From positions 2,480,001 to 2,544,000 of the forward strand of contig NZ_CP147919.1 in the NCBI RefSeq assembly GCF_039645985.1: a stretch of DNA of 64,000 bases, in the 5' to 3' direction. The DNA is from Sulfurimonas sp. HSL3-7. Its GTDB lineage: Bacteria > Campylobacterota > Campylobacteria > Campylobacterales > Sulfurimonadaceae. Position numbers and translations under genes: made by a program. Below the pieces are notes generated by a model, which saw only the letters and a list, made by a program, of their open reading frames with translations, ran no database searches and had not been told where the DNA came from. Shown here piece after piece: positions 25,601-49,909 of the stretch. Position 1 is the first letter of the stretch, and each line of letters begins with the position of its first letter.

Positions 25601-27173
25601 AGCCTATGAAACCCGTAACAAAAAGATCAACAAGATCGAAGGGCTCAAAACACTCAAAACACCGCAGTCGGTCTATGACCAACTCGAACAGATCTGTGCA
25701 GAGGGCTATGAAAACCTCAAAGATGAGGACAGCAAGTTCTTTCTGAAATGTTTCGGCCTGTTTGACAAAGGCGAAGGGGAGTTTATGATCCGCCTGCGTA
25801 TCGCCGGCGGCCAGCTCGAACCGCAGCAGGCGGCAACGATCGGTGAGATCGCGCAACAGTACAGCCGGGATTACATCGACATTACGACACGCCAGCAGAT
25901 CGAACTGCGCTACATCCCCTTTGCCGCCCTGGCCGAGGTGCTCCAGCGCCTCGATACCGTCGGCATCACCACCTTTCAGACGGGGATCGACAACTTCCGT
26001 AATGTCGTCACCTCCCCGTTCGACGGCTATGACAAAACGCAATACATCGCGTGTATGCCCATCATAGAAGCCCTGCAGACGATCTTTCTCAAACGCGAAG
26101 AGTGGATCGGCATCCTGCCGCGCAAGTTCAACACCGCTATCCTCGGCAGCGGTACCAACGACTGCAATATCTATGGCCACGACTGCTGTTTCCTGCCGGC
26201 ACAACGCGACGGTATCTACGGTTTCAATCTTTACCTCGGCGGTAAGGTCGCGGTACAGGCCCAGGAGAGCGGACTGTTTATCAAACCCGACGAACTGACA
26301 ACGGTCTTCGAAGCGCTGATCCATCTCTTCAAGACCTACGGCTTCCGGGACAACCGTAATAAGAACCGTCTCCACTTTCTCGTGGAGTCGGTCGGTATGG
26401 AGAACTTTGCCAAGGCACTTGCCGAACAGAGCGGTCTGAACCTTGCCGAAAGCGGTGAGCTGCTGCTCACGACCGAGCACTGCCTCGGCGATGACGGGTG
26501 TGTCGAGCTTGCGGAAGGTAAAAAGGCCCTGCTCTTTGCGATCCCTTCGGGTATCTTCAGCGGCAGCGACCTGATCGAAACGGCAGCACTGGCACGTTCG
26601 ACCGGCAGCCATATCCGCCTCTCGATCGAGCAGAGTTTCTACCTCATTAACGATGCGTCCAAGATCGGCCAGCTGAAGGCTAGTGCACTTTATACCAAAT
26701 ATAAGAAGTTTCACAACGTCTACTTTACCCACCAGATCGCCTGTGCCGGTACAGAGACCTGCAGCTTCGGCGTCATTCCGAACAAACCCGACGCAATCGA
26801 AATGGCGGAGTTTCTCGACCGCGAGCTGCCGATGGAGAGCGGCAAGATCCGGATGCACTGGTCGGCCTGCCCGAAGGGGTGCGGTATTCACGGTATCGCC
26901 GACATCGGCTTTGAAGGGTGCAAGGCGAAAGATGCCGAAGACAAAAGCTGTTTCGGCGTGCATATCTTTGTCGGAGGCAAAGCGAGTTTTGAAGCGGTAG
27001 AGGCGCGGCAGGTCTTTAAAGCGGTGCCCCTGACCGAGGCCAAAGAGGTCGTCAAAAAGATCGTCGCACTCTATGTCAACGAACGTCTTGAGGGCGAATC
27101 GTTCGAGCTGTATGACACCCGCGTGCTGCAAGCACTGAGTGTCGATCAGCTGCGCGATAAGATCATGCAGTAA
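25584..27173 (+). CDS. nirA: Ferredoxin-dependent nitrite reductase (NirA type)
   Basis: The 529-residue sirohaem and [4Fe-4S] reductase has two ferrodoxin-like halves and the cofactor-binding cysteines CAGTETC (about 390) and ACPKGC (about 432). ITTRQQIELR near residue 105 is the conserved substrate/sirohaem loop. It reduces nitrite to ammonium with six electrons. Sulfite reductases are close relatives, but the nitrate-gene context favours nitrite. The ATG lies inside the end of cysG with an AGGAG site at about 25570. Ammonium made here would enter glutamine synthetase, not encoded in the window. Confidence 0.92.
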   Translation: MTKLHEAYETRNKKINKIEGLKTLKTPQSVYDQLEQICAEGYENLKDEDSKFFLKCFGLFDKGEGEFMIRLRIAGGQLEPQQAATIGEIAQQYSRDYIDITTRQQIELRYIPFAALAEVLQRLDTVGITTFQTGIDNFRNVVTSPFDGYDKTQYIACMPIIEALQTIFLKREEWIGILPRKFNTAILGSGTNDCNIYGHDCCFLPAQRDGIYGFNLYLGGKVAVQAQESGLFIKPDELTTVFEALIHLFKTYGFRDNRNKNRLHFLVESVGMENFAKALAEQSGLNLAESGELLLTTEHCLGDDGCVELAEGKKALLFAIPSGIFSGSDLIETAALARSTGSHIRLSIEQSFYLINDASKIGQLKASALYTKYKKFHNVYFTHQIACAGTETCSFGVIPNKPDAIEMAEFLDRELPMESGKIRMHWSACPKGCGIHGIADIGFEGCKAKDAEDKSCFGVHIFVGGKASFEAVEARQVFKAVPLTEAKEVVKKIVALYVNERLEGESFELYDTRVLQALSVDQLRDKIMQ

Positions 27174-46531: not shown

Positions 46532-47800
46532 TTATTTGAAAAGTGCATTACCTAAATATTCACCGTAGGCGATCTCGGTTTCTATCTCCAAGAGACGGTT
46601 ATATTTTGCAGTACGTTCACCACGTGCTGTTGAACCTGTTTTGATCTCGCCGCAGTTAAGCGCTACCGCGAAATCTGCGATGAAAGCATCTTCACTCTCA
46701 CCAGAGCGGTGGCTCATCACACACTTATAGCCGTTGCGTTGTGCCAGGCGGACTGTCAGCATCGTTTCAGACACAGAGCCGATCTGGTTCGGCTTGATCA
46801 GAATCGAGTTCGCGATACCTTTCGAAATGCCCTCAGCCAGGATATTGGCGTTCGTTACAAAAAGATCGTCGCCTACCAGCTGCACTTTATCAGCAAGTTT
46901 CTCTGTCAGGATCTTCCAACCGTCCCAGTCATCTTCGCTCAGACCGTCTTCGATTGAGACGATCGGGTATTTTGCACACAGCTCTTCATAATAGGCAACA
47001 AGCTCTTCAGAAGAGACTGTTCTGTTTTCAGACTCAAGACGGTAACCGCCGTCGACAACAAGTTCACTGGCTGCGACATCGAGAGCGATCGCGATCTGTT
47101 CACCCGCTTTGTAACCCGCTTTTTCGATCGCCTGAATAATCACTTGAATAGGCTCTTCATTCGAACTTAGATCCGGAGCGAAACCACCTTCATCCCCAAG
47201 AGCGGTATTATGGTTGGTGTCTTTCAAGACCTTTTTAAGGTTGTGATAGACTTCGGCAGATGCTTGCAGCGCAGAAGCAAAATCTTCAAAACCGACCGGC
47301 ATGATCATATATTCTTGAAAATCAACCGAGTTGTCTGCGTGTGAACCACCGTTGATAATGTTAAGCATTGGAGTAGGGTTGACCATAGCATTCGCACCAC
47401 CTAGGTAGCGGTAAAGCGGCATGTTCAAGCTTTTCGCCGCGGCTCTTGCAACTGCCATAGAGACACCGAGCACGGCATTAGCGCCAAGATTGGAGTAGTT
47501 CTCCGTCCCGTCAATCTCTTTCATCGTCGCATCGACGATCGCCTGGTTAAACGGGCTGAGGCCGATTAATGCATCTGCAATCTCACCATTGACATTGTTG
47601 ACTGCCTGAAGTACCCCTTTGCCCATATAGCGTTTGCCGCCGTCACGCAACTCCAGCGCTTCGCGCTTACCGGTACTAGCGCCCGAAGGTACGATCGCAC
47701 TCTCAACTGTACCGTCACTTAAAGCTACGGTTGCCTTTACTGTCGGATTCCCGCGAGAATCCATTACTTCCATTGCACTTACATTATCGATAAAAATCAT
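46532..47800 (-). CDS. eno: Enolase
   Basis: The 422-residue enzyme interconverts 2-phosphoglycerate and phosphoenolpyruvate. Landmarks are [28 protein letters not shown], the metal-binding ligands in [23 protein letters not shown] and [10 protein letters not shown], and [17 protein letters not shown]. Length is normal. Its ATG overlaps the recA stop codon by 4 nt, so eno is translated from the recA transcript. Confidence 0.97.
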
Positions 47801-48834
47801 ATATCTACATCCTCCAATTCTGATTGTTCAATGTCCATGACACTGCTTAGCCCCATGGCTGTTTTAATTTTTTCTTCTATCTCCGCTGCCAGCGCAGGAT
47901 CTTCTTTGAACGCCTCTTTGACCTTTTCTCGTCCCTGTCCGAGTTTTTTATCCCCGTACGAGAACCATGCACCGCTTTTGTCAATGATGTCCAGTTTCAC
48001 ACCGTAATCGACAAGCTCGCCCTCTTTCGAGATGCCTTCACCAAACATAATATCAAATTCTGCTTGTTTAAAAGGCGGCGCCACTTTATTTTTAACGATC
48101 TTTGCTTTTGTACGGTTACCGATAGAGGCTTCTGCCTGCTTAAGTGTTGCGATACGGCGGATATCGATGCGGACAGATGAATAGAATTTCAGCGCATTTC
48201 CGCCGGTCGTTGTTTCAGGTGAGCCATACCCCATCATACCGATCTTCATACGGATCTGGTTGATAAAGATAACCGTACAGTTCATCTTGTGCAGGACTGC
48301 CGTCAGCTTGCGCAGGGCTTTTGACATCAGACGTGCTTGGACACCCACCTGCTGATCGTTCATCTCGCCTTCTATCTCTACTTTCGGTGTCAATGCCGCC
48401 ACCGAGTCGATAATGATCAGATCGACAGCACCGGAACGTGCAATCGTCTCTACGATGTCTAACGCCTGCTCGCCATAATCTGGTTGAGAGACCAAAAGAT
48501 TGTCAACATCTACACCCAGATTCTTGGCATAGTTCACATCAAGTGCATGTTCGGCATCAATAAAAGCACAGACACCGCCCTGCTTCTGACACTCGGCCGT
48601 GATCTGCAGGGTCAATGTCGTTTTACCCGAACTCTCTGGACCATAGATCTCAATCACCCGGCCTTTCGGCACACCGCCTATGCCCAAAGCAAGATCAAGC
48701 CCCAAAGAACCGGTACTGATCGATTCGATCTTCTCTACCTCTTTGTCACCAAGGCGCATCAACGCCCCTTTTCCAAAGGCTTTGTCGATCTGCTTCATTG
48801 CAAGGTCAAGTGATTTTTGTTTATTTGCGTCCAT
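47797..48834 (-). CDS. recA: Recombinase RecA
   Basis: The 345-residue RecA has Walker [10 protein letters not shown] (about 66-74), Walker [14 protein letters not shown], the loop [14 protein letters not shown] and the DNA-binding loop [23 protein letters not shown]. It promotes strand exchange and repair. The ATG follows an AGAGGA site. The 5' region contains an 8-bp hairpin and, further up, a perfect 16-bp inverted repeat shared with mqnD. Campylobacterota generally lack LexA, so these palindromes do not look like SOS boxes. Confidence 0.97.
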
Positions 48835-48848
48835 TAATAATCCTCTAA

Positions 48849-48870
48849 TGAGACAGCTTCTACTGTCTCA
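48849..48870 (-). promoter_or_regulatory. Perfect hairpin in the recA mRNA leader
   Basis: TGAGACAG-CTTCTA-CTGTCTCA is a perfect 8-bp stem with a 6-nt loop, ending beside the recA AGAGGA ribosome-binding site. It lies within the transcript if the promoter is in the inverted repeat upstream. It could modulate recA translation or stability, or be a protein operator. Confidence 0.55.
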
Positions 48871-48889
48871 AATATATTTACTTATATTC

Positions 48890-48935
48890 TATGTCAAAAT
48901 GCAATAATATTTTACATTAATTGCATTTTGACATA
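48890..48935. promoter_or_regulatory. 16-bp perfect inverted repeat between recA and mqnD
   Basis: TATGTCAAAATGCAAT (48890-48905) is repeated exactly, inverted, at 48920-48935, with a 14-nt A/T spacer. Each arm contains TTGACA pointing outwards, toward recA and mqnD respectively. On the plus strand TAAACT follows TTGACA (48928-48933) by 17 nt. On the minus strand only weak -10 boxes are present. It could be a divergent promoter with a symmetric operator. Confidence 0.7.
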
Positions 48936-49045
48936 TTTCTGCAACTAAACTAAACTGCTCAAATCACAATAGTGTGTAATTTTAGCGTTCTTTGGTTAAA
49001 ATCAACATTACTATTAACCCATATTTACACAGATCAGGATACTTT

Positions 49046-49909
49046 TTGAAGAAAATGTTAATTGCCCACTCACCCGACGCCGACGACATCTTTATGTATT
49101 ATGCGATCAAGTTCGGCTGGGTGACCCAGGAGGATGTCGAATTTGACAATATCCCCCTCGATATTGAGACCCTGAATGTTGAAGCGCTCAAAGGGACCTA
49201 CGATATCTCCGCCATCAGTTTCGCCCTTTACCCGCATATCAGAGATGACTATGCCCTGCTTCGAACTGCTGTCAGCTTCGGCGAGGGTTACGGGCCAAAA
49301 CTGATCAAACGTAAAGATAAAACGCTCAAACGCAATTTCAAAGTTGCCCTGAGCGGAAAATATACGACCAATGCGATGCTCTTTCGCATTGCCTACCCGA
49401 ATGCACGCCCAGTCTACATGGACTTTTTGGAGATCGAAGAGGCCGTTCGCAGCGGCAAGGTCGATGCCGGAGTGCTGATCCACGAGAGCATCCTCACCTT
49501 CGGCGACGAACTCGAGGTCGAACGCGAAATCTGGGACATCTGGCAGGAACTTGCCGGTACCGATCTGCCGCTGCCGCTCGGCGGTATGGCGATACGCCGT
49601 TCTCTTCCGCTGACCAAGGCGATCGCTTTTGAAGAGACCCTGACCGAAGCCGTCAAAGTGGCCCGGGAAAGAAAAGAGGAGCTCTGCGACCGGCTGGTCA
49701 AAGAGAAGCTTGTCCGCATTGAAGGGGCGACCCTGGACAAGTATCTGGAACTCTATGCCAACGACGATTCGGTCGAGCTCAGTCAACTTCAACTCAAAGC
49801 GATCGACAAGCTGTTTGAACTGGGCTTCCAACACGGTTTCTACGACACCCTCGTCAAAGCCGAAGACTATCTGATCCCCCGCGAATACAGCCAGCTGCGC
49901 CACAGCTGA
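49046..49909 (+). CDS. mqnD: 1,4-dihydroxy-6-naphthoate synthase (futalosine menaquinone pathway)
   Basis: The 287-residue protein has the MqnD start MLIAHSPDADDIFMYYAIK, the DISAISFALYPHIRDDYALL segment and GEGYGPKLI, followed by DAGVLIHES and LPLPLGGMAIRR. MqnD cleaves cyclic dehypoxanthine futalosine to 1,4-dihydroxy-6-naphthoate in menaquinone synthesis, the pathway used by this phylum. TTG 49046 is chosen because AGGA lies 6 nt upstream; ATG 49055 is the alternative. murB follows after 7 nt. Confidence 0.92.
   Translation: MKKMLIAHSPDADDIFMYYAIKFGWVTQEDVEFDNIPLDIETLNVEALKGTYDISAISFALYPHIRDDYALLRTAVSFGEGYGPKLIKRKDKTLKRNFKVALSGKYTTNAMLFRIAYPNARPVYMDFLEIEEAVRSGKVDAGVLIHESILTFGDELEVEREIWDIWQELAGTDLPLPLGGMAIRRSLPLTKAIAFEETLTEAVKVARERKEELCDRLVKEKLVRIEGATLDKYLELYANDDSVELSQLQLKAIDKLFELGFQHGFYDTLVKAEDYLIPREYSQLRHS

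Follow-up and report, generated by a model that had tools for sequence, protein, structure and literature searches.

Tandem palindromic operators before recA in Sulfurimonas sp. HSL3-7 as probable SOS boxes of a LexA-like, phage CI-type repressor

The intergenic region between recA and mqnD of Sulfurimonas sp. HSL3-7 raises the question of how recA is controlled in bacteria that lack LexA. The epsilonproteobacteria, including Campylobacter and Helicobacter, are described as having no LexA ortholog, and Campylobacter jejuni shows no typical SOS response to ciprofloxacin (PMC2390758). In this study, an inverted repeat in that region was analyzed by computation in the surrounding 64,000-nucleotide stretch of DNA (the window), in the genome and in relatives. 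The analysis defined an operator, showed where it is conserved and how it is placed, predicted its regulon and described the anatomy of the candidate regulator. The repeat very probably represents the tandem operators (SOS boxes) of a LexA-like autoproteolytic repressor of the phage CI type that is encoded elsewhere in the genome. An SOS regulon that dispenses with LexA and is run by a captured CI-type repressor is the best reading of the data.

The repeat pairs TATGTCAAAATGCAAT (48890-48905) with its exact reverse complement (48920-48935), the two agreeing at 16 of 16 positions across a 14-nt spacer, and it lies between the divergent genes recA and mqnD (Table 1). The window has no other inverted repeat of 16 bp with a spacer of up to 60 nt, and 60 first-order Markov copies of it yielded none at all; the repeat is not due to chance. 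Each arm carries an outward-reading TTGACA, exactly as the preliminary description of this DNA had stated for a perfect 16-bp repeat. The exact 16-mer matched only the two arms in the whole genome, and a search allowing up to three mismatches returned a mixed set. Because the exact 16-mer was uninformative genome-wide, the true unit was taken from the recA promoters of relatives, mostly from Sulfurimonas, Sulfuricurvum and the Sulfurimonadaceae. The identity of the arms over all 16 positions was specific to the window genome. Its congeners have two arms that are not identical, and the upstream arm may be inverted in other genera (L049, L051, L053), each arm still being operator-like.

The unit conserved upstream of recA in these relatives is TATKNCAAWTTGNMATA, often framed by an A-tract and a T-tract. 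The repeat is two copies of this 17-bp palindromic operator, not one palindrome, and the centers of the two boxes lie 29 bp apart in the window. It appears as a perfect inverted repeat because both copies share one sequence in opposite orientation, and the flipped upstream copies in other genera are as expected if each box is the site of one dimer. With a leave-genus-out PWM, made from recA loci outside the genus of the window, box 2 scored 21.7 and box 1 scored 17.5, the best and second best places in the window, and the maxima of ten Markov windows ranged from 2 to 12 (highest, 12.0). In 121 Sulfurimonadaceae genomes, 291 sites matched TATKNCAAWTTGNMATA and 5 matched the reversed control, with at least one site in 107 of the genomes (sums added by hand). 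When the 2.87-Mb genome was searched with a model, the site of the regulator described below came out on top (E 0.0024), followed by the two recA boxes (E about 0.05); these sites belonged to the training set, and the leave-genus-out scores are the fair test. Two further matches were rejected as functional sites since they fall within coding sequence: TATGACAAAACGCAATA at 26028-26044 of the window (PWM 15.6), within an open frame of 529 aa (L009 1057-2646) and probably there by chance, and a site at 1488490 of the window genome (G000). Separately, an operator-like TCTTGCAATTTGACATA (E 0.23) was observed in the window genome about 120 bp 5' of the gene for a 137-aa uncharacterized protein (L334; G000:C1:1446450).

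The operators are placed with respect to the recA promoter. The predicted -10 hexamer, TAGAAT, overlaps box 2, that is, the end of the recA-side arm. Of 59 recA promoters that carry a box, 53 have the -10 hexamer 36 or 37 bp downstream of the center of box 1, and this constant distance extends across the Sulfurimonadaceae to Arcobacter-, Sulfurovum- and Sulfurospirillum-like relatives. The spacing of the two boxes was 28-30 bp in all 27 two-box recA promoters, 26 of which had a -10-like hexamer at +7 from the center of box 2. The positions of about -48 and -19 given in Table 1 assume a start 7 nt past the -10 hexamer. Between promoter and gene, the short hairpin in the predicted recA 5' untranslated region shows compensatory changes within the genus, as four of its six pairs were changed on both sides among seven sequences.

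Table 1. Features of the recA-mqnD region (window positions)
Feature	Position	Strand	Remarks
recA, predicted regulated gene	47797..48834	-	ORF of 345 aa; recA of relatives 73-94% identical, full length
Hairpin GAGACAG-TAGAAG-CTGTCTC	48852..48871	-	predicted recA 5' untranslated region
Predicted recA -10 hexamer TAGAAT	48886..48891	-	transcription start expected at about 48879
Operator box 2 (promoter-proximal)	48890..48906	-	recA strand TATTGCATTTTGACATA; center 48898, predicted at about -19; overlaps -10
Operator box 1 (promoter-distal)	48919..48935	-	recA strand TATGTCAAAATGCAATT; center 48927, about -48 from the predicted recA start
Conserved mqnD promoter element TTTTAGCGTTCTTTGGTTAAAAT	48980..49002	+	separate from the operator; single copy in window
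mqnD, divergent neighbor	49055..49909	+	not evidently controlled by the operator

This arrangement leaves some room for a variant in which box 1, at about -48, activates recA in the manner of lambda CI at PRM and repression comes from box 2 only. Box 1 is the more conserved of the two, its distance to the -10 hexamer is constant, and most single-box recA promoters keep their operator at this place, which is unusual for simple occlusion; repression at these promoters is assumed, and activation could operate there as well. We nevertheless regard the variant as unlikely, since an activator that is destroyed on damage would leave less recA expression just when the cell requires it, and several repair genes have the same box placement.

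The candidate regulator came from the operator itself. A PWM made from recA sites only found a site (21.3) upstream of a gene for a 221-aa protein in the window genome (G000:C1:1408459-1409121). The operator of this gene is TATTGCAATATGACATA at 1408373, with a leave-genus-out score of 21.7. The protein contains a PF07022 CI-repressor helix-turn-helix domain (25.5 bits against a cut-off of 22, a modest score) and a PF00717 Peptidase_S24 domain (66.9 bits), both above cut-off. Across 14 aligned orthologs, S96-A97-G98-G99 (the SA|GG cleavage site), Ser140 within GDSMEP and Lys177 are invariant. In the AlphaFold model (mean pLDDT 82.6) the N-terminal half is helical, and the C-terminal half (residues 86-219) matched LexA with Z 14.9 and an rmsd of 2.4 and the lambda repressor-RecA complex with Z 14.2. 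The S24 domain thus combines the Ala-Gly site, the Ser-Lys dyad and the fold of LexA. The top Foldseek match was a lambda-186 CI hybrid (E 3.6e-10), and the best whole-chain matches were the phage 186 and lambda repressors and LexA. A phmmer search of the PDB with the single sequence gave no match, and a search with the profile of the regulator matched LexA and UmuD. CI and LexA proteins typically bind palindromes of this kind and regulate themselves. Here, a site scoring at least 17 lies upstream of 24 of 26 regulator orthologs, and in most genomes of the Arcobacter-like family f9 the operator overlaps the -10 of the regulator gene. The closest phage proteins come from Helicobacter and Campylobacter prophages; they are CI repressors with 28-35% identity over nearly the whole length and fall in the phrog_4 repressor family. 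These similarities are consistent with a phage origin of the regulator. The gene nevertheless stands in a conserved chromosomal context, purU-trmL-regulator, with no phage genes at the loci examined (gene names assigned by eye); this context and the predicted host repair targets do not fit a prophage-encoded CI that controls phage genes.

The regulon predicted from the operator resembles that of a damage response. RecA, its regulator, a Y-family polymerase and repair genes are the usual members of SOS networks. In relatives, exact sites lie mostly 40-100 bp 5' of recA, the regulator gene, radA, recG, ruvB, recN, recD2, yifB/comM, comEA and DNA methylase genes, the names of which were confirmed by family searches. 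The repair-gene sites come mostly from relatives, and none were found at most such genes in the window genome. For the Y-family polymerase, an operator-like match lies 64-67 bp 5' of the HLDLD codon at 15 of 25 loci, the window genome included, and is the best-scoring place at 13. In the window genome this match is flanked by further ones of 15.9 and 8.6; with the leave-genus-out PWM the polymerase sites there are sub-consensus (17.2, 11.8 and 6.3). In two genomes of other families (G027 and G039) the regulator gene is divergent from a Y-family polymerase gene. By its functional definition an SOS repressor has operators before recA and before the repressor gene and controls repair and translesion genes (PMC8565304), and all of these are predicted here. 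The definition also includes RecA-stimulated self-cleavage with induction by damage, for which the cleavage site and the dyad are seen in the protein, and control of a cell-division inhibitor. Among the sites examined, no obvious sulA-like cell-division inhibitor gene was found, and some of the targets are uncharacterized.

Several observations were made beside these genes. In the window genome a Y-family polymerase gene adjoins a SRAP/YedK-like gene (L226:1422-3699; G000:C1 about 1814921-1817198), with three operator-like sites 5' of the polymerase, and a second Y-family polymerase at 2391299 has a weak site (8.1) at the same position. Genes for DNA methylases of the C5, Dam and N6 types stand directly behind exact sites in Sulfurimonas-like genomes (L272, L275, L276, L282, L288, L291, L301), which suggests that restriction-modification genes may be under damage control. 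Moreover, a cysteine-rich, zinc-ribbon-like protein of about 114 aa recurs behind the operator (L173, L174, L271, L279, L305); the L174 copy had no Pfam match.

The distribution of the regulator largely agrees with that of the recA box. The canonical LexA_DNA_bind domain (PF01726) was found neither in the 25 Sulfurimonadaceae genomes searched nor in the regulator, control genomes being positive, and it occurred in 1 of 41 genomes, outside the Sulfurimonadaceae. Of the 29 genomes with a regulator homolog, 24 had a recA box; the nine genomes that lack the homolog had none. This comparison is confounded by shared ancestry. Four families (G025, G027, G029, G039) have a regulator homolog (159-201 bits) and no recognizable recA box, and the same holds for G010 within the Sulfurimonadaceae (best score 9.1); in these genomes the operator must have drifted or the control of recA must have been lost. 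Searched across the class, the regulator profile gave 228 bits or more in several families. In nearly all members of the two large families f11 and f14 it reached no more than about 162 bits or found nothing, the exception in f14 being genus g63, which scored strongly. Families f11 and f14 are presumably Campylobacter- and Helicobacter-like, an assignment supported by the named Helicobacter and Campylobacter records, in which no recA boxes were found.

These data also bear on the idea that the operator belongs to some other transcription factor and that the CI/S24 gene is merely a member of its regulon. The four families that keep the regulator with no recognizable recA box would fit this idea, and the link between the CI/S24 protein and the operator is drawn from sequence. 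Against it, the CI/S24 gene is the only recurring transcription regulator among the targets identified, no site in the window genome ranks above its own, which recurs at nearly all orthologs examined and in most f9 genomes, and the recA box was never found in a genome that lacks it. A different factor is therefore improbable. The proposal of the preliminary description that the palindrome is the operator of a then unnamed recA regulator in a group devoid of LexA is well supported, and a strong candidate for that regulator can now be given. The conservation in close relatives on which this proposal depended was found.

The other neighbor of the repeat, mqnD, was considered as well. One operator serving recA and mqnD jointly, which would link repair to menaquinone synthesis as the preliminary description had thought possible, would suit two divergent genes with a common intergenic region, as they have in much of the family. 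This reading is highly improbable, since the boxes are phased to the -10 of recA and also stand upstream of recA where its neighbor is not mqnD (for example L056 and L062), and the remaining targets are repair, competence and DNA-modification genes. Moreover, mqnD has a conserved element of its own, TTTTAGCGTTCTTTGGTTAAAAT, 45 bp further on, which is roughly palindromic (ATTTTA...TAAAAT), is preserved nearly letter for letter in a large part of the family and may itself act as promoter or operator of a menaquinone gene. For this element, TTTTAGCGTTNTTTGGTTAAAAT was matched exactly in 34 fetched loci, some of which are overlapping copies of one place. A divergent promoter pair, with TTGACA as the -35 of both recA and mqnD, is hardly credible. 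The hexamer does occur in both arms and faces outward in each, but it varies in relatives (TTGTCA, TTGCCA, TTGAAA) where the palindrome is conserved, the conserved -10 overlaps the recA-side arm, and on the mqnD side no conserved -10 was seen by eye in relatives at 16-18 nt from TTGACA; the earlier interpretation of these hexamers was consequently abandoned. A terminator, a cruciform or a MITE with terminal inverted repeats, which the perfect 16-bp arms and 14-nt spacer might suggest, has a negligible chance of being correct, since the repeat lies upstream of both predicted promoters, the 46-bp unit has no other copy in the genome, and the arms vary and flip independently in relatives.

For the CI/S24 repressor, we infer that it binds these sites, possibly with cooperativity, that its action is repression, and that it is cleaved and the regulon induced upon damage. 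In the undamaged cell, repressor dimers would occupy box 1 and box 2, perhaps cooperatively across the 29 bp, which is nearly three turns. Occupancy of box 2 would cover the -10 of recA and block RNA polymerase, and a site of this type before the repressor gene would let the repressor hold down its own expression. Once DNA is damaged, RecA bound to single strands would prompt the repressor to cleave itself between Ala97 and Gly98 with its Ser140/Lys177 dyad. Cleavage would release recA, the repressor gene, a Y-family polymerase and a set of further genes that varies between species (radA, recG, ruvB, recN, recD2, comM/yifB and comEA).

S24 proteins that stand in for LexA are known; the system here differs from them in operator and lineage. 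The non-canonical LexA of Bacteroidetes regulates its own gene as well as repair and translesion genes, belongs to a lineage that lacks LexA and has been suggested to be of phage origin (PMC8565304). Like that protein, the present regulator combines a CI-type helical helix-turn-helix domain with an S24 peptidase, an Ala-Gly site and a Ser-Lys dyad. However, the Bacteroidetes operators are GGA-N5-TCC and CTAA-N5-TTAG and that here is TATKNCAAWTTGNMATA, the Bacteroidetes family was reported to be exclusive to that phylum, and it has been characterized by EMSA and induction data (PMC8565304), whereas the regulator here is a prediction from sequence. FddR of Francisella is likewise an S24-family phage repressor acting in the DNA-damage response of a genus that lacks LexA (PMC13148647), but its network is small and confined to one genus, whereas the system predicted here spans much of a class and, in relatives, many repair genes. 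UmuDAb/DdrR of Acinetobacter also puts an S24-family repressor in the place of LexA and acts on error-prone polymerases; it is, however, derived from UmuD, works with a corepressor and has a regulon around umuDC, not recA (PMC11332147, PMC7273328). HdiR of Lactococcus and Streptococcus, another phage-type LexA-like S24 repressor, was reported to control the cinA-recA operon in S. thermophilus, but its regulon is small and restricted to the Streptococcaceae (PMC8565304). With LexA of Escherichia coli (PF01726 + PF00717) the regulator shares the C-terminal S24 domain, predicted autoregulation and recA and a Y-family polymerase as targets, and it differs by having no match to the winged-helix domain and by its operator. 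The prophage CI proteins of Helicobacter and Campylobacter are similar in sequence, whereas the regulator here is chromosomal and is predicted to act on repair genes of the host. No description of this CI/S24 regulator, nor a precedent in Campylobacterota, was found in the open-licence PMC literature, although prior art elsewhere is possible.

In conclusion, it is reasonably probable that much of the Campylobacterota has a full, vertically inherited and LexA-independent SOS regulon under a phage-derived CI/S24 repressor, which would also couple damage to competence (comEA, comM/yifB) and to DNA modification, and that the Campylobacter- and Helicobacter-like families lost this regulon in whole or in part. 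Such a loss would explain why C. jejuni has no SOS response. One gene and one 46-bp DNA are named here as objects with which to test this proposal. If it is true, many free-living Campylobacterota would turn out to possess an SOS system, phage repressors would have gained control of a host's DNA-damage response in one more independent case, and the absence of SOS in Campylobacter and Helicobacter would represent a loss.
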